NCBI RefSeq assembly: GCF_001941945.1
Contig: NZ_CP015583.1
Coordinates: 3,417,501 to 3,481,500, forward strand
Length of the DNA: 64,000 nucleotides
Direction: 5' to 3'
DNA from: Roseomonas gilardii
Lineage (GTDB): Bacteria > Pseudomonadota > Alphaproteobacteria > Acetobacterales > Acetobacteraceae
The notes under the pieces were generated by a model. That model was not told where the DNA came from, did no database searches, and saw nothing but the letters and a program-made list of their open reading frames with translations. The position numbers and the translations under genes were made by a program. The stretch's first letter is position 1; every line of letters begins with the position of its first letter. This document shows, piece by piece, positions 34,223 through 47,819 of this stretch.

Positions 34223-37200
34223 ATGCCGGAACCCAGCCATCTCATGTCGCTCGCCACCCGCCTCGATGTGCCAGTTGCTGCACCTGCCCCCTTCGATGCC
34301 TTCGCCGCCTCGGTCCAGGTGCAGCCTCCGCTCCGCGCCGCCATCACCCGGCACGAGCGCGCGGCGGAGCCCGACTGCATCGCCCGCCTCCTGCCGGACG
34401 CCACGCTTCCCGCCCCGCTCGCCGCCCGGGCGGCCGACACCGCGACGCGGCTGGTGGAGGCCCTGCGCCGCAAGGGCACGCGCGGCGCCGTCGAGGGGCT
34501 GGTGCAGGAGTTCTCGCTCTCCTCGCAGGAAGGCGTGGCGCTGATGTGCCTGGCGGAGGCGCTGCTGCGCATTCCCGACACCGCCACGCGCGACGCGCTG
34601 ATCCGCGACAAGATCGGCGGCGGGGACTGGCGCTCGCATCTGGGGCATTCGCCCTCGCTCTTCGTGAACGCCGCCACCTGGGGGCTGGTGGTCACCGGCA
34701 GGCTCGCCACCACCAGCAGCGAGACGGGGCTGTCGCACGCGCTGACGCGGCTGATCGCGCGCGGCGGGGAGCCGGTGATCCGCAAGGGCGTGGATCTGGC
34801 GATGCGGATGATGGGCGAGCAGTTCGTCACCGGCCAGACCATCGCCGAAGCCCTGGTGCGCGCCCGGAAGATGGAGGCGAAGGGCTTCCGCTATTCCTAT
34901 GACATGCTGGGCGAGGCGGCGACCACGGCGGCGGATGCGGAGCGCTATGGCCGCGACTACGAGACGGCGATCCATGCGATCGGGCAGGCCGCGGCGGGGC
35001 GCGGGATCTACGAGGGGCCGGGCATCTCCATCAAGCTCTCGGCGCTGCACCCGCGCTATTCGCGCGCGCAGCGGGACAGGGTGATGGCGGAACTGCTGCC
35101 GCGCGTGGCCATGCTGGCGGGCCTGGCGAAGCGATACGACATCGGGCTGAACATCGATGCCGAGGAGGCCGACCGGCTCGACCTTTCGCTGGACATCCTG
35201 GAGGCGCTCTGCCTCGACCCCGCCCTGGCCGGGTGGGACGGCCTCGGCTTCGTGGTGCAGGCCTACCAGAAACGCGCGCCCTTCGTGCTGGACTTCGTGA
35301 TCGACCTCGCGCGGCGTTCCGGCCACCGGCTGATGATCCGGCTGGTGAAGGGCGCCTACTGGGACAGCGAGATCAAGCGCGCGCAGGTCGACGGGCTGGA
35401 GGACTTCCCGGTCTTCACGCGCAAGCGGCACACGGATGTCTCCTACCTCGCCTGCGCGCGGAAGCTGCTGGAGGCGCGCGACGCCGTCTTCCCGCAATTC
35501 GCCACGCACAACGCCCAGACCCTGGCCAGCATCCACGCCCTGTCCGGCTCCCTGGCCGGCGATTCCTTCCGCGTCGGCGACCACGAGTTCCAGTGCCTGC
35601 ACGGCATGGGCGAGCCGCTCTACGAGGAGGTGGTGGGGCCGGGGAAGCTGGACCGCCCCTGCCGCATCTACGCCCCGGTCGGCACGCATGAGACGCTGCT
35701 CGCCTATCTCGTGCGCCGCCTGCTGGAGAACGGCGCCAATTCCTCCTTCGTGAACCGCATCCAGGACCCTGCCGTGACGATGGAGGCGCTGGTCGCCGAT
35801 CCTGCTGCGCAGGTGGCGGCGGAACAGCCGGCCGGCGGGCCCAATCCGCGCATCGCCCTCCCGCGCGACCTCTTCGGCGCGGAACGGGTGAATTCCCTCG
35901 GACTGAACCTGAGCAACGAGGCCGAGCTGGCCCGGCTGGCCGCGGCGCTGCAGGACAGCGCGGCGCGGGACTGGCACGCAGCACCGCTCCTGGCCGGCAT
36001 GAAGGGCCAGGGCATGCCGCGTCCGGTGCTGAATCCGGCCAATCATCGCGATCAGGTCGGTCTGGTGGCGGAAGCCTCGCCGGAGGCCGTCGAGAGCGCG
36101 CTGCGTATCGCCACGGAAAATGCCGCGTCCTGGGCCGCCGAGCCCCCCGAGGCCCGCGCCGCCTGCCTGTTCCGCGCCGCCGACCTGCTGGAACAGCGGA
36201 TGCCGGTGCTGCTCGGCCTGCTGGTCCGGGAGGCCGGGAAGTCCTTCGCCAATGCGGTGGCGGAGGTGCGGGAGGCGGTGGATTTCCTGCGCTACTACGG
36301 CGCGCAGGCGCGGCGGGAGTTCCGCAACGACACGCATCGCGCGCTCGGGCCGGTGCTCTGCATCAGCCCCTGGAACTTCCCGCTCGCCATCTTCACCGGC
36401 CAGGTCGCGGCGGCGCTCGCCGCGGGCAATCCGGTGATCGCCAAGCCGGCGGAGGAAACGCCGCTGATCGCCGCGCAGGCCGTGGGTATCCTGCACGAGG
36501 CCGGAATCCCCGCCGGGGCACTGCAACTCCTGCCCGGCGACGGCACGGTGGGGGCGGCCCTGGTCGCGGATGCGCGTATCCATGGCGTGATGTTCACCGG
36601 CTCCACCGAGGTGGCGAAGCGCATCCAGGCGGAACTGGCGAAGCGCCTGAATCCCGGCGGCGCCCCGGTGCCGCTGATCGCCGAGACCGGCGGACAGAAC
36701 GCGCTGGTGGTGGATTCCTCCGCCCTGGCCGAGCAGGTGGTGGGGGATGTGCTGATTTCCGCCTTCGACAGCGCGGGGCAGCGCTGCTCCGCGCTGCGCG
36801 TGCTCTGCCTGCAGGAGGATGTGGCGGAGCGCATCCTCGCCATGCTGCGCGGCGCCCTGGCGGAGCTTTCGACCGGCAACCCGGACCGGCTTTCCACCGA
36901 TATCGGGCCGGTGATCAGCGTCGAGGCGCGGGACGGCATCCTGGCGCATGTCGAGGCGATGCGCGCGGCCGGCCATCCGGTGCACCAGTCCGTGCTGCCG
37001 GAGGAATGCCGCCACGGCACCTTCGTGCCGCCGACCATCATCGAGATCGACAGCCTGGATGCCCTGACGCGGGAGGTCTTCGGCCCCGTGCTGCATGTGC
37101 TGCGCTTCCGCCGCGATGGGATCGAGGCGCTGATGCGGGCGGTGGAGGCCACCGGCTATGGCCTGACCTTCGGCGTGCATTCGCGGATCGACGAGACCAT

Positions 37201-37930
37201 CCAGCGCGTCACCACCCTGGCGCGGGCGGGGAACATCTATGTCAACCGCAACCTGGTCGGCGCCGTGGTCGGCGTGCAGCCCTTCGGCGGACATGGGCTC
37301 TCCGGCACCGGGCCCAAGGCGGGCGGGCCGCTCTATCTCCGCCGCCTGCTGGCCGCCCGCCCGGCGGCGACGGGCCTGCTGGCGGGCGCCGTGCCCGAAC
37401 ACCTCCGCGCCTGGGCGGCCTGGCTGGCCGGGCGTGGCGAGGCCGTCGCGGCGGCGGAGGCGGAGGCCCTCGGCGCCGCCACGCCCGCCGGCCTCGTGCT
37501 CGAACTCCCTGGCCCGGTCGGCGAGCGGAACACCTACGCCACCGAACCCCGTGGCAGCGTGCTGTGCCATGCCGCCGATGCCGCGACGCTCCACCGCGCC
37601 ATCACGGCGGCGCTGGCTGCCGGGAACCGCGCCCTGGTCGCCGCCGGCGGCGCGCGGCTGGAGGCTCCCCTGCCCCCCGCCCTGGCCGGCTGGGTGCGCG
37701 AGGCCGGTCCCGCTGCCCTCCCGGACGTGCAGGCCGTGCTGTTCGGCGGAACGGAGGAAGCGCTGAAGGCCCTGGCGCAGCACCTCGCCTCGCTCGACGG
37801 CCCCATCGTCCCGGTCCATGCCATCGGTGGGGAGTCCGGCTTTCCGGCGGAGTTCCTGCTGCTGGAACGCTCGGTGAGCACCAACACCGCGGCGGCGGGC
37901 GGCAATGCGAAGCTGATGATGCTCGGCTGA
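34223..37930 (+). CDS. putA: PutA, bifunctional proline dehydrogenase / glutamate-semialdehyde dehydrogenase
   Basis: 1235 aa. Oxidises proline to glutamate using FAD and NAD, passing P5C by internal channelling. PRODH domain about 130-480 with RLVKGAYWDSEIKRAQ; ALDH domain about 560-1010 with E821 (ETGGQNAL) and nucleophile C855 (GQRCSALR); a C-terminal ALDH-like tail follows to 1235. No N-terminal ribbon-helix-helix domain is present, so it is not self-regulating like E. coli PutA. Start ATG 34223, with AT-rich promoter sequence in the 270 nt before it. Monocistronic, divergent from the dehydratase gene. Confidence 0.95.
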   Translation: MPEPSHLMSLATRLDVPVAAPAPFDAFAASVQVQPPLRAAITRHERAAEPDCIARLLPDATLPAPLAARAADTATRLVEALRRKGTRGAVEGLVQEFSLSSQEGVALMCLAEALLRIPDTATRDALIRDKIGGGDWRSHLGHSPSLFVNAATWGLVVTGRLATTSSETGLSHALTRLIARGGEPVIRKGVDLAMRMMGEQFVTGQTIAEALVRARKMEAKGFRYSYDMLGEAATTAADAERYGRDYETAIHAIGQAAAGRGIYEGPGISIKLSALHPRYSRAQRDRVMAELLPRVAMLAGLAKRYDIGLNIDAEEADRLDLSLDILEALCLDPALAGWDGLGFVVQAYQKRAPFVLDFVIDLARRSGHRLMIRLVKGAYWDSEIKRAQVDGLEDFPVFTRKRHTDVSYLACARKLLEARDAVFPQFATHNAQTLASIHALSGSLAGDSFRVGDHEFQCLHGMGEPLYEEVVGPGKLDRPCRIYAPVGTHETLLAYLVRRLLENGANSSFVNRIQDPAVTMEALVADPAAQVAAEQPAGGPNPRIALPRDLFGAERVNSLGLNLSNEAELARLAAALQDSAARDWHAAPLLAGMKGQGMPRPVLNPANHRDQVGLVAEASPEAVESALRIATENAASWAAEPPEARAACLFRAADLLEQRMPVLLGLLVREAGKSFANAVAEVREAVDFLRYYGAQARREFRNDTHRALGPVLCISPWNFPLAIFTGQVAAALAAGNPVIAKPAEETPLIAAQAVGILHEAGIPAGALQLLPGDGTVGAALVADARIHGVMFTGSTEVAKRIQAELAKRLNPGGAPVPLIAETGGQNALVVDSSALAEQVVGDVLISAFDSAGQRCSALRVLCLQEDVAERILAMLRGALAELSTGNPDRLSTDIGPVISVEARDGILAHVEAMRAAGHPVHQSVLPEECRHGTFVPPTIIEIDSLDALTREVFGPVLHVLRFRRDGIEALMRAVEATGYGLTFGVHSRIDETIQRVTTLARAGNIYVNRNLVGAVVGVQPFGGHGLSGTGPKAGGPLYLRRLLAARPAATGLLAGAVPEHLRAWAAWLAGRGEAVAAAEAEALGAATPAGLVLELPGPVGERNTYATEPRGSVLCHAADAATLHRAITAALAAGNRALVAAGGARLEAPLPPALAGWVREAGPAALPDVQAVLFGGTEEALKALAQHLASLDGPIVPVHAIGGESGFPAEFLLLERSVSTNTAAAGGNAKLMMLG

Positions 37931-37970: not shown

Positions 37971-39617
37971 TCAGCCGGCTTCCAGGCGGGCCATGGCGCG
38001 GATGCGGTCCGCCATCCGGCAGGCCAGGGCCTGGATGGTGAGCGAGGGGTTCACGCCGCCGCTGGTGGGGAAAAGCGAGCTGTCGCAGATCCACAGGTTG
38101 CGGATGTCCCAGCACCGCCCATCGGCATCGGTCACGCTGCGCTCCGGGTCCGTTCCCATGCGGCAGGTGCCCATGAGATGGGCCGTGTCGCCCGGCTCGG
38201 TGAAGATGTCGCGCCCCCCGGCGGCCTCCAGGTGCCGCCGCATGAAGGCCTCCGCGTGCCGGTGCAGCCGCCGGTCCTCCTCGCCGAAGGAATGCGTCAC
38301 CCGGGCCACCGGCAGGCCGAAGCGGTCCTTCTCCTCCGCCAGGGTGACGCGGTTGCGCGGCTGCGGCAGGCTCTCGCCCACGATCTTCAGCCCGGCCTGG
38401 TGGTTGTAGTCGGTCATGCGCGTGCGCAGCGCCTCGCCCCAGAGGCCCAGGCTGCTGGTCATGGTATTGACCCAGGACACCGGCAGCGGCCCCTGGCTCA
38501 TGTAGGAATAGCCGCCCGGGAAGTCCTTGCCCTCGTCCGTGTAGTTCCAGTGTTCCGTGACGGAGAGGGAGGGCGGCCCCTTGTACCAGCGGATCTCGTC
38601 CTCCATCCGCCCGAAGACGCCGAGATTGCCGTGCACCATCAGGTTCCGGCCGACGAGGCCGGAGCGGTTGGCCAGGCCGTCCGGGAAGCGGGCATTGGCC
38701 GAGTTCAGCAGCAGGCGCGGCGTTTCGATCGCATAGCCCGCCACCACGACGTTGCGCGCCTTCTGGAAGCGCCATTCCCCGTCCCGGTGGTAGTGCAGGC
38801 CGGTGGCTCGGTCGTCCGGCCCCACCTCGATCCGCCCCGCCATGGCGAGGTCGCGGATCTCCGCCCCAGCCTCCAGCGCGCGCGGCAGCCAGGTGACCAG
38901 CACGCTCTGCTTGGCATTGGTGGAGCAGCCGGAGACGCAGAAGCCGCGATAGACGCAGGGATGCGCCAGCCCGCGCGGCGCGGAGACGGTGGCCAGCGGC
39001 GTCGGCGCCCAGGCGATGCCCAGCTTCTCCGCCCCGCGCGCCAGGACATTGGCGGCGGCGTTCATCGGATGCGCGCGGTAGGGGGAGCGGCGACGGTGCG
39101 GCCCCCAGGGATAGCGCACCGGGCCGGAAATCTTCAGCGCATCCTCGACCTCGTCGTAGTAGCGCCACATCTCGCGCCAATCGACCGGCCAGTCCTCGCC
39201 ATAGCCGAGCCGCGAGCGCGCCTTGAACCATTCGGGGCGGAAGCGCAGCGAGACCATGGCGAAGTGCACCGTGCTGCCGCCCACCGCCTGGCCGCTGTTG
39301 TTGGCGCCGAGCTCCAGCGGGTCGTCGCCATCGCAGATCCGCTCGTCGAGCCAGTAGAGCTTGCTCTGGGAGCGTTCGTCGGAGGCGAATTCCTCCAGCG
39401 GGCGCCAGTAGGGACCGACATCGAAGGCGACCACGGAAAAGCCCGCTTCGGCCAGCCGGCAGGCCAACGTGCCGCCCCCGGCCCCGGTGCCGACGATGGC
39501 GAAATCCACCGTGTCGCCGTCGGCATATTGCCGCATCGGCACCCAGGCGCCGGGGCGCATCACATCCGGCGCGCGGTGGTCGCGGGCGCGGGTCCCGCTC
39601 GCGGCGTCAGCGGTCAT
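37971..39617 (-). CDS. GMC-family FAD oxidoreductase with 3Fe-4S type Cys motif
   Basis: 548 aa. FAD-binding Rossmann motif IVGTGAGGG at 41-49; GMC C-terminal block with HLMGTCRMG and GVNPSLTIQALA near the end. C221, C227 and C231 (C-x5-C-x3-C in CVYRGFCVSGC) match the spacing known for the [3Fe-4S] cluster of bacterial FAD-dependent glucose dehydrogenase. It overlaps by 11 nt with the subunit-3 gene, its expected partner. No signal peptide. Likely a quinone- or membrane-linked sugar/alcohol dehydrogenase; substrate unknown, but neighbouring rhamnose and dehydratase genes suggest an aldose. The longer frame to 39821 is overlap with its partner. Confidence 0.85.
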   Translation of the reverse strand: MTADAASGTRARDHRAPDVMRPGAWVPMRQYADGDTVDFAIVGTGAGGGTLACRLAEAGFSVVAFDVGPYWRPLEEFASDERSQSKLYWLDERICDGDDPLELGANNSGQAVGGSTVHFAMVSLRFRPEWFKARSRLGYGEDWPVDWREMWRYYDEVEDALKISGPVRYPWGPHRRRSPYRAHPMNAAANVLARGAEKLGIAWAPTPLATVSAPRGLAHPCVYRGFCVSGCSTNAKQSVLVTWLPRALEAGAEIRDLAMAGRIEVGPDDRATGLHYHRDGEWRFQKARNVVVAGYAIETPRLLLNSANARFPDGLANRSGLVGRNLMVHGNLGVFGRMEDEIRWYKGPPSLSVTEHWNYTDEGKDFPGGYSYMSQGPLPVSWVNTMTSSLGLWGEALRTRMTDYNHQAGLKIVGESLPQPRNRVTLAEEKDRFGLPVARVTHSFGEEDRRLHRHAEAFMRRHLEAAGGRDIFTEPGDTAHLMGTCRMGTDPERSVTDADGRCWDIRNLWICDSSLFPTSGGVNPSLTIQALACRMADRIRAMARLEAG

Positions 39618-40227
39618 GGCGATGCTCCGCCGCCTCCCAGGGATCGCGCCGGTTCTCGTCCATGCGGACATAGCCGCGCGGCGAGGCCGGGCCGCCGAAG
39701 CCGATCTCGCTCCAGGCGGTGGGATGAGCGTAGTAGGCGCTGCCGATATCGTGCAGCACGCGGCTCTTGAAGAAGGCCTTCGGCGGCAGCCCGCGCCATT
39801 CCGGCGCCTGGGTCTCGCCACGCTGTACTGCGCCCAGCAACGCGTCCTGGCGCCCCGGCGTCAGCTCCGGAAAGGCCGCGCCATAGACGAGCCATGCCTC
39901 CGCATCCAGGGCGCGCAGCCCCTGCCGCCAGCATTCGCCGATCGGCGGCATGCCGTCGATGCGGTAGCCGTCGCCATGGCCGGACCGCATCTGCGCGTCG
40001 ATCATCTCCGGCAGGGGCACAGGCCGGTCGCGCAGCGCGGGCTGCGGCAGGATGCGGGCACAGAGCGCGACCAGCACCCGCCATTCCACCGCGTCGAAGA
40101 AACCCGGCGCGGGCGGGGCGAGGCGTTCCTCCACCACGGCCCGCGTCTGCGCGTTCCAGGACGGGGTGTCGCGCTTGGCCAGCACGTCATAGCCGGGATA
40201 GCTGTAGCGCTGCCGGGGCTCAGCCAT
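39607..40227 (-). CDS. Gluconate 2-dehydrogenase subunit 3 family protein
   Basis: 206 aa. Resembles the small hitch-hiker subunit of gluconate/glucose/fructose dehydrogenases (Gluconate_2-dh3): EWRVLVALCARILPQP near 48-63, FPELTPGRQDALLGAVQRGE and FFKSRVLHDIGSAYYAHP. In characterised complexes this subunit carries a Tat signal that exports the flavoprotein; here the N terminus (MAEPRQRYSYPGYDVLAKRD) has neither twin arginines nor a hydrophobic stretch, so the complex should stay in the cytoplasm. Overlaps both neighbours (11 and 8 nt). Confidence 0.83.
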   Translation of the reverse strand: MAEPRQRYSYPGYDVLAKRDTPSWNAQTRAVVEERLAPPAPGFFDAVEWRVLVALCARILPQPALRDRPVPLPEMIDAQMRSGHGDGYRIDGMPPIGECWRQGLRALDAEAWLVYGAAFPELTPGRQDALLGAVQRGETQAPEWRGLPPKAFFKSRVLHDIGSAYYAHPTAWSEIGFGGPASPRGYVRMDENRRDPWEAAEHRHDR

Positions 40228-41170
40228 GGTCCGGCCCTCCCATCAGCGCCAGCGCCGCCAGGCCGGCCAGGCCGAGGCCGGTGAAGGAAGGCGGCGCCGG
40301 GACCGGCGGCCCGTCCAGCAGGTTCTGGCTCCAGTTGCGCCAGCCGCCCATGTGGCGGGACACGCCGCGGATGTGGAAGCCCGCCCCGGCCATGCCAAGC
40401 AGCACCGTCAGCCAGGAAGCGCCGCGTGCCCGCTGCCGTGAGCGCCGTTCCTCCGGCCGCGCCGCCGCCCAGCCCAGCAGCCCCGCCACGGCGGGCGGCA
40501 GCAGCACGGGGAGGTACATGGCCCGGTTCTGGAAGTTGCCACGGAAATGCAGCAGCGCCGCCTCCGCCGTGGTGCCGAGCAGCCCGGCGGCGACCAGGGC
40601 GGCAATCCCCTGCCCCAGTTCGCGGTCGCCGAGCGGTTCCGTCTGCGTCAGGCCGAGGCTGTCCAGGCGGTCCGGCGGCTGTTCCCGCACCTGTTCCGCC
40701 GCCAGCCCCACCGCGCCGGAGAGCAGCATGGCAGCCGGGGCGCCCAGCGGGGCGCCGTAGAACAGGTTCTCGAAGCTCAGCCGGCCGGGGCGCTTGAGGA
40801 CGTTGTAGATGTGGAAGCCCGTCCCGATCAGGCCGGTCAGCGCCGCCAGCCCGTGGATCGCGTTGCGCGTCCGGTGCGGCAGTGGCCTCCGGTCCGCCAG
40901 CCCGTGCAGGGCCGAGACGAGCGAGACGCCTGCCGTCAGCAGCGGCGTGACCATCGCCTTGTTCCGGAAGGCACCGCGATAGTGCTCGATACCGCTGTCG
41001 CCCAACACGGCGAGGGCCAGGATGGCGGCCCCGCCATGCAGATGCCGGGCGGCGCGCCTGCGCCTGTCATGCACGGCAGCCGTGCTGGGCAAGTGCAGGC
41101 GGGTGAGCAAAGCTCCCGCTGGCAGCGGCCAGGAAGGATTGCGGTCGGCGCGGGCTTTCAACCGGATCAT
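40220..41170 (-). CDS. Internally duplicated multi-pass membrane protein of unknown function
   Basis: 316 aa, about eight predicted membrane segments. I do not recognise a named family. Two homologous halves are visible: EHYRGAFRNKAM (62-73) repeats as LHFRGNFQNRAM (207-218), and GTGFHIYNV (116-124) as GAGFHIRGV (262-270), each followed by an aromatic loop (LFYGAPLGAP and NLLDGPPVPAP). Each half keeps two His at matching positions (H63/H208 and H120/H266). It overlaps the dehydrogenase small subunit by 8 nt, so it is probably the membrane anchor and perhaps the haem/quinone electron acceptor of the GMC enzyme. Start ATG 41170; the frame to 41488 is overlap with the upstream gene. Confidence 0.7.
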   Translation of the reverse strand: MIRLKARADRNPSWPLPAGALLTRLHLPSTAAVHDRRRRAARHLHGGAAILALAVLGDSGIEHYRGAFRNKAMVTPLLTAGVSLVSALHGLADRRPLPHRTRNAIHGLAALTGLIGTGFHIYNVLKRPGRLSFENLFYGAPLGAPAAMLLSGAVGLAAEQVREQPPDRLDSLGLTQTEPLGDRELGQGIAALVAAGLLGTTAEAALLHFRGNFQNRAMYLPVLLPPAVAGLLGWAAARPEERRSRQRARGASWLTVLLGMAGAGFHIRGVSRHMGGWRNWSQNLLDGPPVPAPPSFTGLGLAGLAALALMGGPDHG

Positions 41171-41198: not shown

Positions 41199-42308
41199 TC
41201 AGGAAACGAGGTAGCGGGCGGCGTCGGCCTGCCGGAAGGCGAGCCCCAGCCCCGGCCGCGACAGGTCCGGGGCGATGACGCCGCCCCGCAACACGGGCGC
41301 GCCGTCGAAGAGCATCGCCTCGATCCGCACATGGTCGTGGAACCATTCGAGATGCCGCAGGCGCGGGGCGGCGCAGGCGGCATGCAGGTGCAGGGCCGGG
41401 GCGCAGTGCCCCGAGAGATCCGTGTGGAAGCTGTCGCAGATCGCGGCGGCGCGCAGGAAGCCGGTGATGCCGAGGCAGCGGCTGGCATCCGCCTGCATCA
41501 CATCCACGGCGCCCGCCGCCAGCATCCGGCGCACATAGGCGGGGTCGTAGGCATATTCCCCCGCCGCGATCTCCTGCCCCGGCGGTCCGCCCTCCCGCAC
41601 CAGGCGCAACCCGTCCAGGTCGTCGCTGGAGACGGGTTCCTCGAACCAGGCGACCTCAGCCTCCGCGGCGCAGCGATGCGCCACGGCCAGGGCCCGCTTC
41701 GCGGTGAAGGCGCCATTGGCATCGACGAAGAGCCCGCCCCGCCCCGCCGCCGCGCGCGCCACGGCAATGCGGCGCGGGTCCTCTTCCGGATGGGTGCCGA
41801 TCTTCATCTTCACCCAGCGGCAGCCATCCCGCTCCACCCAGCCGGCGAGCTGGTCGCGCAGCACCTCGTCGGGATAGGTGGTGAAGCCGCCGCTGCCATA
41901 GACCGGCGCCTCCCGCCGCGTGGCGCCCAGCAGTGTCACCAGCGGCAGGCCCAGCAGCTTCGCCTTCACGTCCCAGAGCGCGGCGTCGAGGGCGGAGATG
42001 GCGCAGGCCGCGACACCCTCCCGGCCGATGTTACGCACCGCCCGCACCATCGCCTCCCAGGCGGCGGGGAGGTCCATGGCATCCTGCCCCTGCAGCGCCT
42101 TCGCCAGCACGCCCTGCACCAGCCCGGCAGCGGCGGCGTCCGCATAGGTGTAGCCCAGTCCCCGCTCGCCCCCGGCCCGCAGCTCCGCCAGGACCAGCGT
42201 GGTGCGGTCCCAGGCGATGGTGCCGTCCGCCTCGGGGCGGTCGGTCGGGATGGTGTAGGCGGAGGCCGATACGGAGCCGACCGGAGCCTCCGCGCGCCGC
42301 AGGCTCAC
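41199..42308 (-). CDS. Enolase-superfamily dehydratase/racemase (MR/MLE family)
   Basis: 369 aa. KxK base motif K167/K169 in WVKMKIG, metal ligands D196 (VDANGA), E223 (WFEEP) and E251 (AAGEYAYD), and H301 in SGHCAP. This is the mandelate-racemase pattern with a KxK, different from the galactonate-type paralogue at 32798. Probably a sugar-acid dehydratase or an epimerase. 4-nt overlap with the TPP gene upstream and 28 nt to the membrane protein gene downstream, so it belongs to the redox operon and could act on the aldonate formed by the GMC enzyme. Confidence 0.82.
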   Translation of the reverse strand: MSLRRAEAPVGSVSASAYTIPTDRPEADGTIAWDRTTLVLAELRAGGERGLGYTYADAAAAGLVQGVLAKALQGQDAMDLPAAWEAMVRAVRNIGREGVAACAISALDAALWDVKAKLLGLPLVTLLGATRREAPVYGSGGFTTYPDEVLRDQLAGWVERDGCRWVKMKIGTHPEEDPRRIAVARAAAGRGGLFVDANGAFTAKRALAVAHRCAAEAEVAWFEEPVSSDDLDGLRLVREGGPPGQEIAAGEYAYDPAYVRRMLAAGAVDVMQADASRCLGITGFLRAAAICDSFHTDLSGHCAPALHLHAACAAPRLRHLEWFHDHVRIEAMLFDGAPVLRGGVIAPDLSRPGLGLAFRQADAARYLVS

Positions 42309-44104
42309 GACCGGCCCGGCAGCACCGAGCTTGCGACCTGTCGGAAGGTGTCCCTGATGACGCTGCCCAGTTCCGGCTCGCCCGCCATCGAGCGGGTGAA
42401 GGCCAGCGCCTGCTTCAGCGTGATATGCGGCGGCAGCGGCGGCACGTTGCCATCGGCGCGGAACTCCACCACCACCGGGCGGTCGGAGGCGAAGGCTTCC
42501 TCCCAGGCCGCGCCGATCTGCTCCGGATCATGCACCTCGATGCCCCTGAGCCCGATCATCTCGGCGAAGCGGGCATAGGCAACGTCGGGGATGTCCTGCG
42601 TCGTCAGGTATTTCGGGTCGCCCTCCATCACCCGCTGCTCCCAGGTCACCTGGTTCAGATCGCGGTTGTTCAGCACCATGGCGACGAATTTCGGCGTTTC
42701 CCACTGCTTCCAGTACTTGGCCACGGTGATCAGCTCGGCCATGCCGTTCATCTGGAAGGCGCCGTCACCGCAGATGGCCAGGACCGGGCGGCGCGGATGG
42801 GCGAACTTGGCCCCGATGGCATAGGGCATGCCCGAGCCCATCGTGGCGAGGCCGCCGGACAGCGAGGCCATCATGCCGCGCCGCATCTTCACGTCGCGCG
42901 CATACCAGTTGGTGTGGGAGCCGGAATCGCCGGTGATGATCACCCCGTCCGGCAGGCGCGGCGACAGCTCCCAGAAGATGCGCTGCGGGTTGATCGGATC
43001 GGCCGGCTGCATGGCCCGGTCCTTCAGGGTCTCCCACCAGCCGGCGATGTCCTTGGCGATCGTGTCGCGCCAGGAGGTGTCGGTCTTCTGCTCCAGCATC
43101 GGCAGCAGCGCGCGCAACGTCGCCGCCGCATCGCCTTCCAGGTTCACCTCCATCGGATAGCGGATGGAGAGGTTCCGTGCCTGCATGTCGATCTGCACGC
43201 CGCGCGCCGCGCCTTCCTTCGGCAGGAACTCCGAATAGGGGAAGGAGGAGCCCACCATCAGCAGCGTGTCGCAGCCCTGCATCAGGTTCCAGCTCGGCTT
43301 CGTGCCCAGCAGGCCGATGGAGCCGGTGACCCAGGGCAGGTCATCCGGCAGCGCCGCCTTGCCCAGCAGCGCCTTGGCCGCCCCGGCCTGGAGCCTGTCG
43401 GCCACGGCGATCACCTCGTCGGTGGCCTCCAGCGCCCCGGCGCCGACCAGCATGGCGACCTTCTTGCCGCTGTTCAGCACCTCCGCCGCGCGTTCCAGCG
43501 TCGCCGCGCCGGGGATGACGCGCGGCGCGGAATAGCCGCTGCCCGAGGGCACGATCCCGTGCGCGCGCGGCAGGTCCTCGACGGCCGGGAGATCCTGCAG
43601 GTCGTTGGGGAAGATCAACGCCGTGACTGCGCGCTCCCCCATGGCGATGCGCATGGCACGGTCGATCAGGTGGCGGATCTGCGCCGGCACCATCGCCGTC
43701 TGCACAAAGGAGCCCGCGACATCCTTGAACAGCGCCTGGAGGTCGATCTCCTGCTGGAAATGCCCGCCCAGCGCCGTGCGCGCCTGCTGCCCGACCAGGG
43801 CGAGCACGGGCTGATGGTCGGCACGCGCGTCATAGAGGCCGTTCAGCAGATGCACCGCGCCGGGGCCGGAGGTCGCGATGCAGACGCCGACCTCGCCGGT
43901 GAACTTGGCGTGGGCGCCGGCCATGAAGGCCGCCATCTCCTCGTGCCGCGCCTGGACGAAGTCGATCTTCCGCTCAGGAATCTCGTTGTGCCGCGCGAGG
44001 CCGCCGATCAGCCCGTTGATGCCGTCGCCGGGATAGCCGAAGACCCGGCGCACCCCCCATTCGCGCAGCCGCTCCCAGACCTGGTCGCCCACTGTCTTCG
44101 CCAT
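42305..44104 (-). CDS. Thiamine-pyrophosphate-dependent enzyme (pyruvate oxidase/acetolactate synthase-like)
   Basis: 599 aa with the three-domain POX/ALS architecture: N-terminal PYR domain with catalytic Glu E55 (RHEEMAAFMAG), central domain with DADH-type remnants, and C-terminal PP domain with GDGAFQMNGMAELITV ... NN (about 442-475). ATG 44104 is preceded by AAGGAAAG; the frame to 44236 lacks family sequence. The reaction (oxidase, decarboxylase or carboligase) cannot be read. It starts the five-gene redox operon and lies 141 nt after rhaI, so read-through from rhaDI is possible. Confidence 0.82.
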   Translation of the reverse strand: MAKTVGDQVWERLREWGVRRVFGYPGDGINGLIGGLARHNEIPERKIDFVQARHEEMAAFMAGAHAKFTGEVGVCIATSGPGAVHLLNGLYDARADHQPVLALVGQQARTALGGHFQQEIDLQALFKDVAGSFVQTAMVPAQIRHLIDRAMRIAMGERAVTALIFPNDLQDLPAVEDLPRAHGIVPSGSGYSAPRVIPGAATLERAAEVLNSGKKVAMLVGAGALEATDEVIAVADRLQAGAAKALLGKAALPDDLPWVTGSIGLLGTKPSWNLMQGCDTLLMVGSSFPYSEFLPKEGAARGVQIDMQARNLSIRYPMEVNLEGDAAATLRALLPMLEQKTDTSWRDTIAKDIAGWWETLKDRAMQPADPINPQRIFWELSPRLPDGVIITGDSGSHTNWYARDVKMRRGMMASLSGGLATMGSGMPYAIGAKFAHPRRPVLAICGDGAFQMNGMAELITVAKYWKQWETPKFVAMVLNNRDLNQVTWEQRVMEGDPKYLTTQDIPDVAYARFAEMIGLRGIEVHDPEQIGAAWEEAFASDRPVVVEFRADGNVPPLPPHITLKQALAFTRSMAGEPELGSVIRDTFRQVASSVLPGRS

Positions 44105-44245: not shown

Positions 44246-45562
44246 TCAGACGATGCCACCTCCGCCACCACGCCGGACGGGGCGGCGGGCGGCGCGGTCC
44301 TGGCGGTAGCCGCTGGCGCGATAGGCCGCGACCGGGTCGATGGCCGCGCCCTTGCGCTGCCGCACCATGGCCAGGATCGGCGAGACATCCGTCTGGAAAG
44401 ACTGCTTCAGCAGGCGGTGCGCCATCAGCGCGTCGTTCGCCTCCTGATACGCGGCCAGCGCGGCGCGGTCCACGAGCAGCGCCTGGGCATAGGCGCGCTG
44501 GATCTCCAGGGCCGACCCGATCAGGCTTTCGATCGGGTCGGTGACATTGTGCGACTGGTCGATCATGTAGGCGGGCGGCCGGTCGAAGGCCCCCGCCGCC
44601 CCGGCATCCACCAGCTCGTTGAAGACCAGGAAGAGCCGGAAGGGGTCGATCGAGCCGCTGTCCAGGTCGTCGTCGCCATACTTGGAATCGTTGAAGTGGA
44701 AACCGGCGAGGCGCTTCGCGTGCACCAGCCGCGCCACGATCATCTCGATGTTCACGTTCGGCGCGTGGTGGCCGAGATCGACGAGGCAGCGCGCCTGCGG
44801 CCCGATCTCCTGCGCCGCCAGCAGCGAGGAGCCCCAGTCCTGGATCACCGTGGCATAGAAGGCGGGCTCGCAGAGCTTGTGCTCCAGGAAGAGCGACCAG
44901 TCCGGCGGCAGCGCGGCGGCGATCTGCCGGACGCTGCCGATATAGCGCTCATAGGCCCCGCGCAGGTTCGACTGCCCAGGGAAGTTGGCGCCGTCGCCGA
45001 TCCAGATCGTCAGCGCCTTGCTGCCCAGCGCCTCGCCCGCGCGGATGCAGGCGATGTTGTGCGCCACGGCCTGGGCCCGCACCGCAGGATCGGTGTGCGA
45101 CAGGCTGCCGAACTTGTAGGAAAGCGGATGGTCCGGATGATCCGGGTGGTCCTGGAAGGTGTTCGAGTTCACCGCGTCGAAGCACAGGCCCAGCCCCTCC
45201 GCCTCGGCCCGCAGCGCGGCATGGTCCGCGACCTCGTCCCAGGGGAAGTGCAGCGAGACGCCGGGGGTGGCGCCCGTCAGCGCCTGCACCACGGCGCAGT
45301 CCTCCAGCCGGTCGCGCAGGCTGGCCGGCTCGCCCCCGCCGGGGAAGCGCGCGAAGCGCGTGCCGCCCGTGCCCGTGCCCCAGGAGGGCAGCGCCACGGC
45401 GAAGCCCGCGAGCCGCTCCGCCACCGCCTCGATGTCGATGCCGCGCGCCGCCAGCTTCCCGCCCAGCCATTCATAGTCGCGCGCCGTCTCGGCCTCCAGC
45501 GCGCGGTTGCATTCCGCGCGGAACGCCTCGTCCACCGGACGGACCCTCATGATCTGGTTCAT
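44246..45562 (-). CDS. rhaI: L-rhamnose isomerase, RhaI type
   Basis: 438 aa xylose-isomerase-like TIM barrel that converts L-rhamnose to L-rhamnulose, of the type found in rhizobia and Bacteroidetes/actinobacteria rather than E. coli RhaA. Metal-site residues are seen in FLEHKLCEPAFY, LVDLGHHAPNVNIE and GFHFNDSKYGDDDLD; substrate region GVSLHFPWD. ATG 45562 has GGGAGGGGACGGGA before it. 31 nt downstream of rhaD in the same direction. Confidence 0.92.
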   Translation of the reverse strand: MNQIMRVRPVDEAFRAECNRALEAETARDYEWLGGKLAARGIDIEAVAERLAGFAVALPSWGTGTGGTRFARFPGGGEPASLRDRLEDCAVVQALTGATPGVSLHFPWDEVADHAALRAEAEGLGLCFDAVNSNTFQDHPDHPDHPLSYKFGSLSHTDPAVRAQAVAHNIACIRAGEALGSKALTIWIGDGANFPGQSNLRGAYERYIGSVRQIAAALPPDWSLFLEHKLCEPAFYATVIQDWGSSLLAAQEIGPQARCLVDLGHHAPNVNIEMIVARLVHAKRLAGFHFNDSKYGDDDLDSGSIDPFRLFLVFNELVDAGAAGAFDRPPAYMIDQSHNVTDPIESLIGSALEIQRAYAQALLVDRAALAAYQEANDALMAHRLLKQSFQTDVSPILAMVRQRKGAAIDPVAAYRASGYRQDRAARRPVRRGGGGGIV

Positions 45563-45593
45563 TCCCGTCCCCTCCCTCGCGCCTGTCCCGACC

Positions 45594-47720
45594 TTAGCGG
45601 GTGAAGGCGGGCGCATGGCCCGCATCCACGTTCAGGATGTTGCCGGTGGACTTGCCGGACCGCGCCTCCGCGGCGAAGAAGGCGATGGCCTCGGCGATAT
45701 CCTCAGGAAAGACGCCGCGCTTGAGCAGCGAGCGCTCGATATAGACCTTCTCCAGATCCTCCCGCGTCGTCCCGTTGGAGGCGGCGCGCTGGTCGCCCCA
45801 TTCCCCCTGCCAGATGCGCGAACCGCGCAGCACCGCATCCGGGTTCACCACATTGGCACGGATGCCGTGCGGCGCGCCTTCCAGCGCGAGACAGCGGGCG
45901 AGGTGCAGTTCCGAGGCCTTGGCGACGCAATAGGCCGAGGCGCCCGGCGAGGCCACCATGGCGTTCTTGGAGGCCACCAGCACGATGGAGCCGCCCGTGC
46001 CCTGCGCCCGCATCAGCCGAAAGGCCTCCCGCGTCACCAGGAAATAGCCGGTGGCGAGGATCGAGAGGTTGCGATCCCAGAGTTCCAGGCTCGTCTCCTC
46101 GATCGGCGCGGCGGAAGCGATGCCGGCATTGGAGACGCAGATATCGACGCCGCCGAAAGCCAGCGCGGCCTCGGCATAGAGGGCCTGGACCGCTTCCTCC
46201 CGCGTCACGTCCACCCAGGCCGAGGCCACGGCATCGGCGCCATGGCTGCGGCGCAGCGCCGCCTCGGCCTCCGCCAGCGCGTCGCGGTCGATGTCGCAGA
46301 GCACGATGCAGGCGCCCTCATCCGCCAGGCGGCGCGCCGTGGCCATGCCGATGCCGCCCGCGCCGCCGGTGATCAGCGCCACCTTGCCGGCCAGCGCCTT
46401 CGGCCTCGGCATGCGTGCGAGCTTCGCCTCCTCCAGCAGCCAGTACTCGATGTCGAAGGCTTCCTGCTCCGGCAGGCCGCGATAGGCGGAGACGGTGGAG
46501 GCGCCGCGCATCACGTTGATGGCGTTGGTATAGAACTCGCCCGCGATGCGCGCCGTCGCCTTGTCAGCGGCGAAGGTGATCATGCCCACACCCGGCACCA
46601 GATAGACCACCGGGTTCGGGTCGCGCATCGCCGGGCTGTCCGGGCGCCGGCAGCGTTCGTAATAGGCGGCATAGCCTTCGCGATAGGCGGCGATGGCCGG
46701 CTCCAGGCGCGGCAGCAACTCCTCCAGCCCCTCCCGCGCCGGATCGAACTCCAGCACCAGCGGCGCGATCTTGGTGCGCAGGAAATGGTCGGGGCAGGAG
46801 GTGCCCAGCGGCGCCAGTTCCGCCAGGGCCTGCGAGCCCACGAATTCCAGCACCGCCGGGCTGTCGTCGAAATGCCCGATGCGGGTGGGCGTGGCGCCGC
46901 CATGGTCGCGCCCCGCGATCAACCCACGGATCCGGGGCATCAGCGCTGCCACCAGGGCGCGCCGTTCCTCCCGCGGCAGGGCGGCCACCTTCCCGCCGCC
47001 GAAAGCGGGCCGCCCCTGGGATTGCAGCGTCAGCCAGTCGATCGCCCGGTTGATCGTGCCGATCGTGGTCTCGTAGCACTCCCGCTGCGTCTCGCCCCAG
47101 GTGAAGAGCCCGTGCGCCTCCAGGATCACGCCCTTCGCCCGGGGATTCTCTACCACGAAGCGCTGTAGCCACAGCCCCAGTTCGAAGCCCGGGCGCCGCC
47201 AGGGAATCCAGCCGATCGTGTCGCCGAAGATCTCCTGCGTCAGGCGTTGACTGTCGGCCGAGGCGGCGATGGCGATGATCGCGTCCGGATGCACGTGATC
47301 GACATGCGGCCAGGGGATCAGCCCGTGCAGCGGCGTGTCGATCGAGGTCGCACGCGGGTTCAGGTTGAAGGTCAGATGGGGATAGAGCGCCACTATCGCA
47401 TCCTCCCGCTCCGGCCCCCCGTAGAGATCCGGCAGCCGCAGCAGGCGGTCCTGGTAGAGCGTGGCGAAGCCGTCGAGCTTCATCGTGCCGATATCACCGC
47501 CCGAGCCCTTCACCCAGAGCACCGTCACCGTCTCGCCCGTCAGGGGATCGCGCATCGGGATCTTCGAGGAGGTGTTGCCGCCGCCGTAGTTGGTGACGCG
47601 CTTGTCGGAACCGAGCAGGTTCGAGCGGTAGAGCAGCTCCTCCTCCGGCGCCAGGGTCGCGGCATGCGCGGCGTCCCAGCGGTTCTCCAGCAGGGGAGCG
47701 ATGGGGGTGACGGTGTTCAT
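45594..47720 (-). CDS. rhaD: RhaD, bifunctional rhamnulose-1-phosphate aldolase / short-chain dehydrogenase
   Basis: 708 aa fusion. The N-terminal class II aldolase domain (about 40-390: NYGGGNTSSKIP, HVDHVHPDA with metal His, and VILEAHGLFTWG) splits rhamnulose-1-P into DHAP and L-lactaldehyde. The C-terminal SDR domain (about 425-708: GKVALITGGAGGIGMATA, VSNAGIASAAPIEE, SAYCVAKASELHLARC) oxidises lactaldehyde to lactate. AGGGAGG precedes ATG 47720; the 20 extra codons upstream run into the operator. First gene of the leftward rha operon, divergent from rhaR. Confidence 0.95.
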   Translation of the reverse strand: MNTVTPIAPLLENRWDAAHAATLAPEEELLYRSNLLGSDKRVTNYGGGNTSSKIPMRDPLTGETVTVLWVKGSGGDIGTMKLDGFATLYQDRLLRLPDLYGGPEREDAIVALYPHLTFNLNPRATSIDTPLHGLIPWPHVDHVHPDAIIAIAASADSQRLTQEIFGDTIGWIPWRRPGFELGLWLQRFVVENPRAKGVILEAHGLFTWGETQRECYETTIGTINRAIDWLTLQSQGRPAFGGGKVAALPREERRALVAALMPRIRGLIAGRDHGGATPTRIGHFDDSPAVLEFVGSQALAELAPLGTSCPDHFLRTKIAPLVLEFDPAREGLEELLPRLEPAIAAYREGYAAYYERCRRPDSPAMRDPNPVVYLVPGVGMITFAADKATARIAGEFYTNAINVMRGASTVSAYRGLPEQEAFDIEYWLLEEAKLARMPRPKALAGKVALITGGAGGIGMATARRLADEGACIVLCDIDRDALAEAEAALRRSHGADAVASAWVDVTREEAVQALYAEAALAFGGVDICVSNAGIASAAPIEETSLELWDRNLSILATGYFLVTREAFRLMRAQGTGGSIVLVASKNAMVASPGASAYCVAKASELHLARCLALEGAPHGIRANVVNPDAVLRGSRIWQGEWGDQRAASNGTTREDLEKVYIERSLLKRGVFPEDIAEAIAFFAAEARSGKSTGNILNVDAGHAPAFTR

Positions 47721-47773
47721 GGTGCCTCCCTGGACGCGGTTGTCGGCCCGCTTCCGGATGCAGGCTTCCATAT

Positions 47774-47819
47774 CGATCATAAACGATCAAGTCCAATCCA
47801 ATTCGACCGATTTTGATCG
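47774..47819. promoter_or_regulatory. Repeat-rich divergent operator of rhaDI / rhaR
   Basis: CGATCA occurs at 47774-47779 and again at 47784-47789 (10-bp phase, one helical turn), and its inverted copy TGATCG at 47814-47819. The 46-nt block lies in the 167-nt gap between rhaD and rhaR, and is AT-rich compared with its surroundings. DeoR-family repressors commonly bind such direct/inverted repeats. Binding by the adjacent DeoR protein is inferred. Confidence 0.6.

Follow-up and report, generated by a model that had tools for sequence, protein, structure and literature searches.

A stretch of 64,000 nucleotides from Roseomonas gilardii (contig NZ_CP015583.1, positions 3,417,501 to 3,481,500; hereafter the window) encodes, on the minus strand at positions 40220 to 41170, a 316-amino-acid protein that consists of two homologous four-helix units. 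This protein, here called X, is proposed as the membrane partner of a GMC dehydrogenase and its gluconate dehydrogenase subunit 3 (S3), whose genes follow it. A preliminary description of the locus suggested that X stands in for the cytochrome c subunit of related dehydrogenases as membrane anchor and electron acceptor. Our analysis indicates that X is very likely a partner of S3 and GMC. The narrower claim, in which X serves a cytochrome c-less X-S3-GMC complex as its membrane subunit and links the enzyme to quinone, we regard as evenly balanced. The replacement of cytochrome c by X as the membrane link is well supported genetically, by the internal duplication, the invariant histidines, the lack of cytochrome c, and the near-obligate association with S3 and GMC. 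The original idea remains the explanation that we prefer, although its setting has changed, with a perhaps cytoplasmic complex, an operon of four or five genes, and a system that is not wholly new.

Internal duplication and invariant histidines

Translation reproduced the 316-residue open reading frame and its repeated motifs (RGAFRNKAM at residues 65 to 73 and RGNFQNRAM at residues 210 to 218; GTGFHI at residues 116 to 121 and GAGFHI at residues 262 to 267), in agreement with the positions first reported. X is an internal duplication beyond chance, because the local alignment of its halves scores 157 against 1,000 shuffles with a mean of 32.8 (standard deviation [SD], 5.7; maximum, 63), and because profile-profile alignment of the two half families with hhalign gives an E value of 2.5e-20 over 124 columns (a single comparison). 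This alignment places half 1 at residues 38 to 165 (40676 to 41059, minus strand) and half 2 at residues 182 to 316 (40223 to 40627, minus strand).

For the conservation analysis, 75 X stretches were reduced to 47 by removing near-duplicates (≥88%) and then to 46 by leaving out the truncated copy at L002. Four histidines, H63, H120, H208, and H266, are kept in 46/46 homologues, and the remaining 9 of the 13 histidines of X vary; the pairs H63/H208 and H120/H266 were first noticed in the single protein, and the objection that they might not be conserved among homologues falls away. H63 lies in an EHYRG motif at the end of helix 1 (codon at 40982 to 40984, minus strand) and H120 in the GTGFH motif of helix 3 (40811 to 40813, minus strand); their counterparts are H208, in an LLHFRG motif where the first long helix of half 2 ends (40547 to 40549, minus strand), and H266, in the GAGFH motif of its third long helix (40373 to 40375, minus strand). 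D58, E203, R65, R210, N279, Q282, and several glycines and prolines are also invariant in the 46-row alignment.

X matched no Pfam family at an E value of 1 and only two NCBIfam models, both far under the cutoff. Across the 46 homologues, four Pfam families matched one member each (best E value, 0.0023) and none matched more than one member at an E value of 0.1. The X profile had 0 matches among Protein Data Bank (PDB) sequences at an E value of 10, and Foldseek searches gave best E values of 0.48 with the X model and 0.45 with half 2. Assignment of X to a known family was rejected on these results.

Linkage of X with S3 and GMC

Profile searches (E value, 0.001) detected X in 48 of 397 genomes of the family (several as fragments only), 4 of 385 genomes of the class, and 5 of 398 genomes of the phylum, the window genome being included in each set; around five first-look candidates were scored per genome, and the counts are lower bounds. 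By tblastn (E value, 1e-5), X was found in 22 of 72,556 plasmid records, and comparison of coordinates showed adjacent genes in the order X-S3-GMC in all 22, which bears out the expected co-occurrence. These 22 are also the plasmid records listed as carrying a GMC at ≥63.8% identity (at least 22 records, with a tally of 23 at 60 to 80% identity). In a sample of 80 family genomes (G803 to G882, taken as members from their numbering and kinship), the GMC clade (≥65% identity) was present in 13 genomes, all 13 of which carry X, and in none of the 66 genomes without an X match (Fisher P = 4e-14, uncorrected for kinship). The remaining genome, G877 (2.0 Mb), carries X and GMC both fragmented with stops (C1:775793-778908).

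We compared gene content in 27 loci with wide flanks (16 chosen regions and 11 others, a nonrandom sample). S3 was present in 25, GMC in 24, a gene for a thiamine pyrophosphate (TPP)-dependent enzyme in 23, and a dehydratase gene in 20. All ten X plasmid loci that were inspected combine X, S3, and GMC with the TPP gene, and eight of them have the dehydratase. In the window, the X and S3 genes overlap by 8 nucleotides (nt), as first described (X ends at 40220 and S3 begins at 40227); among nine plasmid loci, the overlap is 8 nt in four and 4 to 26 nt in four more, with a gap in one. Two loci lack S3. The genome of the first (G054) encodes a GMC with 68% identity on a different contig. In the second, from Roseomonas mucosa ATCC BAA-692 and its twin G003 (L002/L008/L073), X is truncated, the surrounding 18 kb has no S3, and the closest GMC encoded in the genome reaches just 39% identity, yet the genes for the TPP enzyme and the dehydratase persist. 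X and the GMC clade are therefore co-inherited and are decaying in two relatives. An S3 match was obtained in 37 plasmid records, of which 11 had no X match at an E value of 10 (Sphingobium, 5; Burkholderia, 3; D. gobiensis, 1; M. bullatum, 1; Agrobacterium, 1), in a search that is weak for distant forms, as the Frondihabitans version surfaced only at an E value of 4.

GMC and S3 without cytochrome c or visible export signal

S3 (39607 to 40227, minus strand) is a Gluconate_2-dh3 small subunit of 206 amino acids (PF13618; 79.2 bits against a cutoff of 23.4). The catalytic subunit, a GMC dehydrogenase of 548 amino acids with an inferred start codon (37971 to 39617, minus strand; PF05199/PF00732), is closest among solved structures to glucose dehydrogenase 6a2u_B (E value, 5e-52), followed by fructose dehydrogenases 8k6k_A and 7w2j_A. 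The 3Fe-4S ligands of Burkholderia cepacia glucose dehydrogenase, Cys212, Cys218, and Cys222 (PMC6719666), align with C221, C227, and C231 of the window GMC (Cys-x5-Cys-x3-Cys; 38925 to 38957, minus strand), and this triad is kept in 25/25 aligned GMCs of the X group. The same 25 proteins have valine, alanine, or methionine at the position of Cys213, which in B. cepacia forms an intersubunit disulfide that is not essential for activity (PMC6719666). H118 is kept and aligns with His105, for which a bond to flavin adenine dinucleotide (FAD) has been proposed (PMC6719666).

The reported absence of a cytochrome c nearby holds: none of the 13 PF00034 matches in the genome lies within the window, and no CXXCH motif occurs in the eight operon and flanking genes (34.2 to 47.8 kb of the window). 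Inspection by eye of the N-termini of 26 S3 and 25 GMC proteins, from inferred start codons, revealed no twin-arginine translocation (Tat) or Sec signal. Two other S3 loci of the same genome (L088, C2:579000-591000; L089, C1:1244000-1256000) are of the classical kind: S3 has a twin-arginine-type signal, and the neighboring genes encode a GMC and a triheme cytochrome c (three CXXCH motifs). As these controls from its own genome have both features, the window system appears to do without a classical export signal and without cytochrome. Since no export signal is visible on GMC and S3, an X-S3-GMC complex would probably act on the cytoplasmic face of the membrane, a compartment in which cytochrome c subunits are not known to mature. 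The lack of a visible export signal, like the TPP enzyme and dehydratase genes and the single-unit relatives of X described below, was overlooked in the preliminary description.

A possible departure from the classical trio was seen in Paracoccus pantotrophus (L081:3429-5563), where an S3-like protein with a Tat-type signal stands beside an Fe-S-type GMC, with no cytochrome c annotated within ∼4 kb in a gene table that may be incomplete.

The TPP enzyme and the question of a pyruvate oxidase

On the minus strand, the genes are transcribed in the order PoxB-like TPP enzyme, enolase-type dehydratase, X, S3, GMC. The overlap is 4 nt between the TPP and dehydratase genes and 11 nt between S3 and GMC, whereas the dehydratase gene and X are 28 nt apart. 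The TPP-dependent enzyme (42305 to 44104, minus strand; start codon inferred, with the frame open to 44236) fits NCBIfam model NF006129/PRK08273 at 1038 bits (cutoff, 724), the name of which gives no function, and matches 3ey9_A at an E value of 1.7e-86. The next gene (41199 to 42308, minus strand; PF13378/PF02746) encodes an enolase-superfamily protein resembling sugar-acid dehydratases; its best NCBIfam match, talarate/galactarate dehydratase, reaches 166 bits, under the cutoff of 500.

An operon of this kind was described in 2015 in Asaia bogorensis, where Asbog_02184-02187 encode a TPP/PoxB-like protein, a protein with seven transmembrane (TM) segments, an S3-domain protein, and a GMC; it was listed as a quinone-linked pyruvate oxidase and called unique to A. 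bogorensis (PMC4596401). By gene order, this is very probably the same system as the X operon. Five family genomes of one genus (L040 and L043-L046) have the order TPP-X-S3-GMC, with the TPP gene directly before X and flanks that end before showing what precedes it.

X, S3, and GMC could accordingly be accessory to a membrane pyruvate oxidase, with the PoxB-like protein as the main enzyme and X as a quinone-linked base shared by both. The name given to the Asaia operon (PMC4596401) speaks for such an arrangement, as do the TPP gene in 23/27 loci and its position between X and S3 in four of them (L058-L061), where the order is shuffled to X-TPP-S3(-GMC) and the genes stay together. We nevertheless consider it improbable: the TPP protein fits PRK08273 but fails the equivalog model for ubiquinone-dependent pyruvate dehydrogenase (PoxB) (373 bits against a cutoff of 792), the GMC has a catalytic site of its own, and X-S3-GMC occurs without a TPP gene in L069 (8 kb upstream of X seen) and L068 (4 kb), while the sequence of L071 stops just past X.

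The operon is flanked upstream (44246-47780) by L-rhamnose isomerase/aldolase-like genes and downstream (34223-37930) by a convergent PutA-like gene, as judged by eye. Genes annotated repeatedly near X operons encode a sensory rhodopsin transducer (L021, L076, L077, and L084), GH15 (L017, L018, L022, L076, L077, and L084), SDR (L017, L018, L022, L024, L076, L077, and L084), and SMP-30/gluconolactonase (L016 and L023); these recurrent neighbors hint at a sugar substrate. A general stress (EcfG-type) promoter was considered and rejected, as the motif had four one-mismatch sites in the window against an expected mean of 7.3 and none before the operon.

Structure of X and the proposed electron route

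The AlphaFold2 model of X (38 sequences; predicted local distance difference test [pLDDT] score, 86.9; predicted template modeling [pTM] score, 0.85) has four long helices per half, and residues 180 to 316 predicted alone again form four long helices (pLDDT, 90.7; pTM, 0.83). Whether the halves superpose was assessed through their secondary structure and the profile alignment. In the model, H63 and H120 lie toward the ends of long helices 1 and 3 of half 1, and H208 and H266 lie likewise in half 2; all four invariant histidines are therefore expected to share one face of X.

The preliminary description called X a membrane protein. The long helices with few charges agree with this, but their hydropathy is only moderate, and we prefer the softer statement that X is likely inserted in the membrane. 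A soluble cytoplasmic domain is the less likely reading, as stretches of 19 residues with at most one charged residue occur 3.2 times per 100 amino acids in X compared to 0.5 to 1.2 times in seven further proteins encoded by the window. The helix cores have few charges and a family-mean peak 19-residue hydropathy (KD19) of 0.91 to 1.49 per helix, with a maximum of 1.82 in X itself. An N-terminal hydrophobic stretch (KD19, >1.6) is present in 9/27 X homologues (3/27 were not measurable) and absent from the window X.

In the mechanism that we infer, which extends to the assembly of the complex, its insertion in the membrane, the flow of electrons, the cofactor, the sidedness, and the substrate, GMC would oxidize a sugar, a sugar acid, or a related alcohol at its FAD, and electrons would pass from FAD to the 3Fe-4S cluster at the surface of GMC and then to X, which would hand them to quinone. 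The halves of X, four-helix units that each have two invariant histidines toward one end, may together form a pseudo-twofold site, a candidate for binding a b-type haem or a quinone head group, in a complex working at the cytoplasmic side. The expression profile of the Asaia operon, which is similar to that of cyo-2 (PMC4596401, section 3.5), is counted in favor of this scheme. That X holds haem b is possible but doubtful.

Several points weigh against this mechanism. The helices are only moderately hydrophobic (family grand average of hydropathy, 0.17), and X may be a peripheral protein. Loop charges weakly favor a periplasmic position of the histidine face (lysine plus arginine, 12.7 on side A and 7.9 on side B; net charge per residue of the loops, 0.094 versus 0.080). 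This weak positive-inside signal, taken at face value, would put the histidines outside, opposite a cytoplasmic S3-GMC, and is the main internal tension of the proposal. The Asaia enzyme, too, was thought to be seemingly periplasmic, with the cytoplasmic side left possible (PMC4596401). GMCs that have no X beside them, in Paracoccus and D. gobiensis, carry the 3Fe-4S motif as well, and the D. gobiensis S3 has neither a signal nor an X beside it; therefore, neither the cysteine triad nor a signal-less S3 demands X by itself. Finally, the matches listed in the structure searches do not go beyond generic helical bundles.

The highest VIA match of X was a helical metalloprotein, 3d19_D (Z score, 11.3; root mean square deviation [rmsd], 4.2; 238 aligned residues), and Z scores under about 13 may reflect merely the common arrangement of helical bundles. 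The matches of half 2 include designed haem-b bundles (8d9p; Z score, 10.8; rmsd, 3.5; 136 aligned residues). No natural cytochrome b or NrfD was among the VIA matches listed, which proves nothing. TTYH2, GGCX, p22phox (over half 1), copper storage proteins, and CD20 (with half 2) also appeared and were set aside as generic helical bundles. The proteins 3d19 and 3dby are duplicated helical metalloproteins of the DUF2935 type; a DUF2935-like identity of X by sequence was rejected, as no Pfam family matched more than one of the 46 members at an E value of 0.1 and the four single matches are to other families.

The match to 3d19_D bears on whether X might be a nonhaem protein of the membrane that handles a metal or small molecule, as a transporter or a sensor of the pathway substrate, and is merely co-regulated with the enzyme. 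A conserved acid near each first histidine (D58/E203) would suit such a role. However, the Z score lies in the generic range, X lacks a shared Pfam relation, and X co-occurs more with S3 and GMC than with the dehydratase, and we think this quite improbable, more so than the pyruvate oxidase arrangement. A stronger competitor is that X is a structural anchor or assembly factor, for instance guarding the 3Fe-4S cluster or docking S3-GMC, while electrons pass directly from the cluster to quinone or another carrier and the histidines are structural. The tight link of X with S3-GMC suits any partner role, the X sequence has no recognizable haem signature, and its fold matches are generic. The four histidines and the neighboring arginine, asparagine, glutamine, and tryptophan residues are, on the other hand, invariant or nearly so, seemingly beyond the needs of an anchor, and we judge a purely structural role unlikely, though the most credible of the alternatives to a quinone-linking X.

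Single-unit relatives

Outside Pseudomonadota, the distribution of X is based on plasmid records only. In four such records, a more divergent form precedes S3 and GMC. That of Granulicella (Acidobacteriota) is a complete X of 315 amino acids, whereas those of Frondihabitans (Actinomycetota) and two Deinococcus strains consist of one unit only, 154 to 157 amino acids long. The single units match both half profiles of X (45 to 77 bits; E values of 5e-15 to 6e-25 in a set of seven sequences), and each keeps both histidines. Most likely, X arose when a free-standing unit was duplicated and the copies were fused.

The single-unit gene of either Deinococcus locus overlaps one for a VKOR-like protein with a CxxC motif (L076:4166-4564 and L077:4161-4550; PF07884 E values of 4e-5 and 6e-6, just under the cutoff); VKOR proteins are quinone linked. 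In Deinococcus strain D7000 (L076:5011-7608), S3 and GMC are fused in a protein of 865 amino acids, which supports a tight S3-GMC complex.

Taken furthest, these observations would outline a new family of electron acceptors in the membrane, built on a four-helix unit with one bis-histidine site for haem b (or quinone), single in Actinomycetota and some Deinococcota and a fused duplicate elsewhere, through which Fe-S GMCs feed the quinone pool from the cytoplasm without cytochrome c. We offer this extended proposal tentatively and consider it rather unlikely as a whole, on a par with haem b in X or slightly below. The series from single unit to fused duplicate would also offer a clear example of how duplication shapes a membrane protein in evolution.

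Significance

Enzymes of this GMC class find use in glucose electrodes (PMC6719666 and PMC9727119). If the proposal is true, a cytoplasm-type GMC with a different membrane partner would connect such dehydrogenases to respiration by a second route, a function would be gained for a set of proteins now annotated as "hypothetical," and the unassigned TPP/dehydratase operon would become testable as an NADH-independent oxidation route. The characterized members of the class are, as far as is known, located in the periplasm, and most of them use cytochrome c.

The claim of a new type of membrane link stands in part. The operon and its quinone link are not new, because both were proposed for Asaia in 2015 (PMC4596401), and we found no other description of such an operon in a literature search that left most subscription journals outside. 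Absent from section 3.5 of that article are the duplication, the single-unit relatives, the invariant histidine pairs, the four-phylum distribution, and the contrast in Tat signals and cytochrome c.

Comparison with known systems

The Asaia operon and the X operon are likened by gene order alone. The classical FAD-dependent glucose, gluconate, and fructose dehydrogenases are heterotrimers of a GMC, a small hitchhiker subunit, and a triheme cytochrome c (6a2u and 7w2j). With the glucose and fructose dehydrogenase trimers, including that of B. cepacia, the X system shares a Cys-x5-Cys-x3-Cys GMC and a Gluconate_2-dh3 subunit in one operon. It differs from them in that no cytochrome c was found, the small subunit has no visible Tat signal, Cys213 is replaced by valine, alanine, or methionine, and X is present instead.

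The role proposed for X resembles that of the di-haem cytochrome b anchors of the fumarate reductase subunit C type, which act at the membrane as acceptors for the electrons of a flavin/Fe-S enzyme, and a structural parallel of this kind has been drawn for B. cepacia glucose dehydrogenase (PMC6719666). Searches with Pfam and the PDB profile found no sequence relation between X and these anchors, and X is built of two homologous four-helix halves.

The NrfD/PsrC-type subunits offer another parallel, with eight helices in two bundles, no haem, and a quinone site beside an Fe-S partner. X has no Pfam match to them at an E value of 1 and is set apart from them by its invariant histidine pairs.

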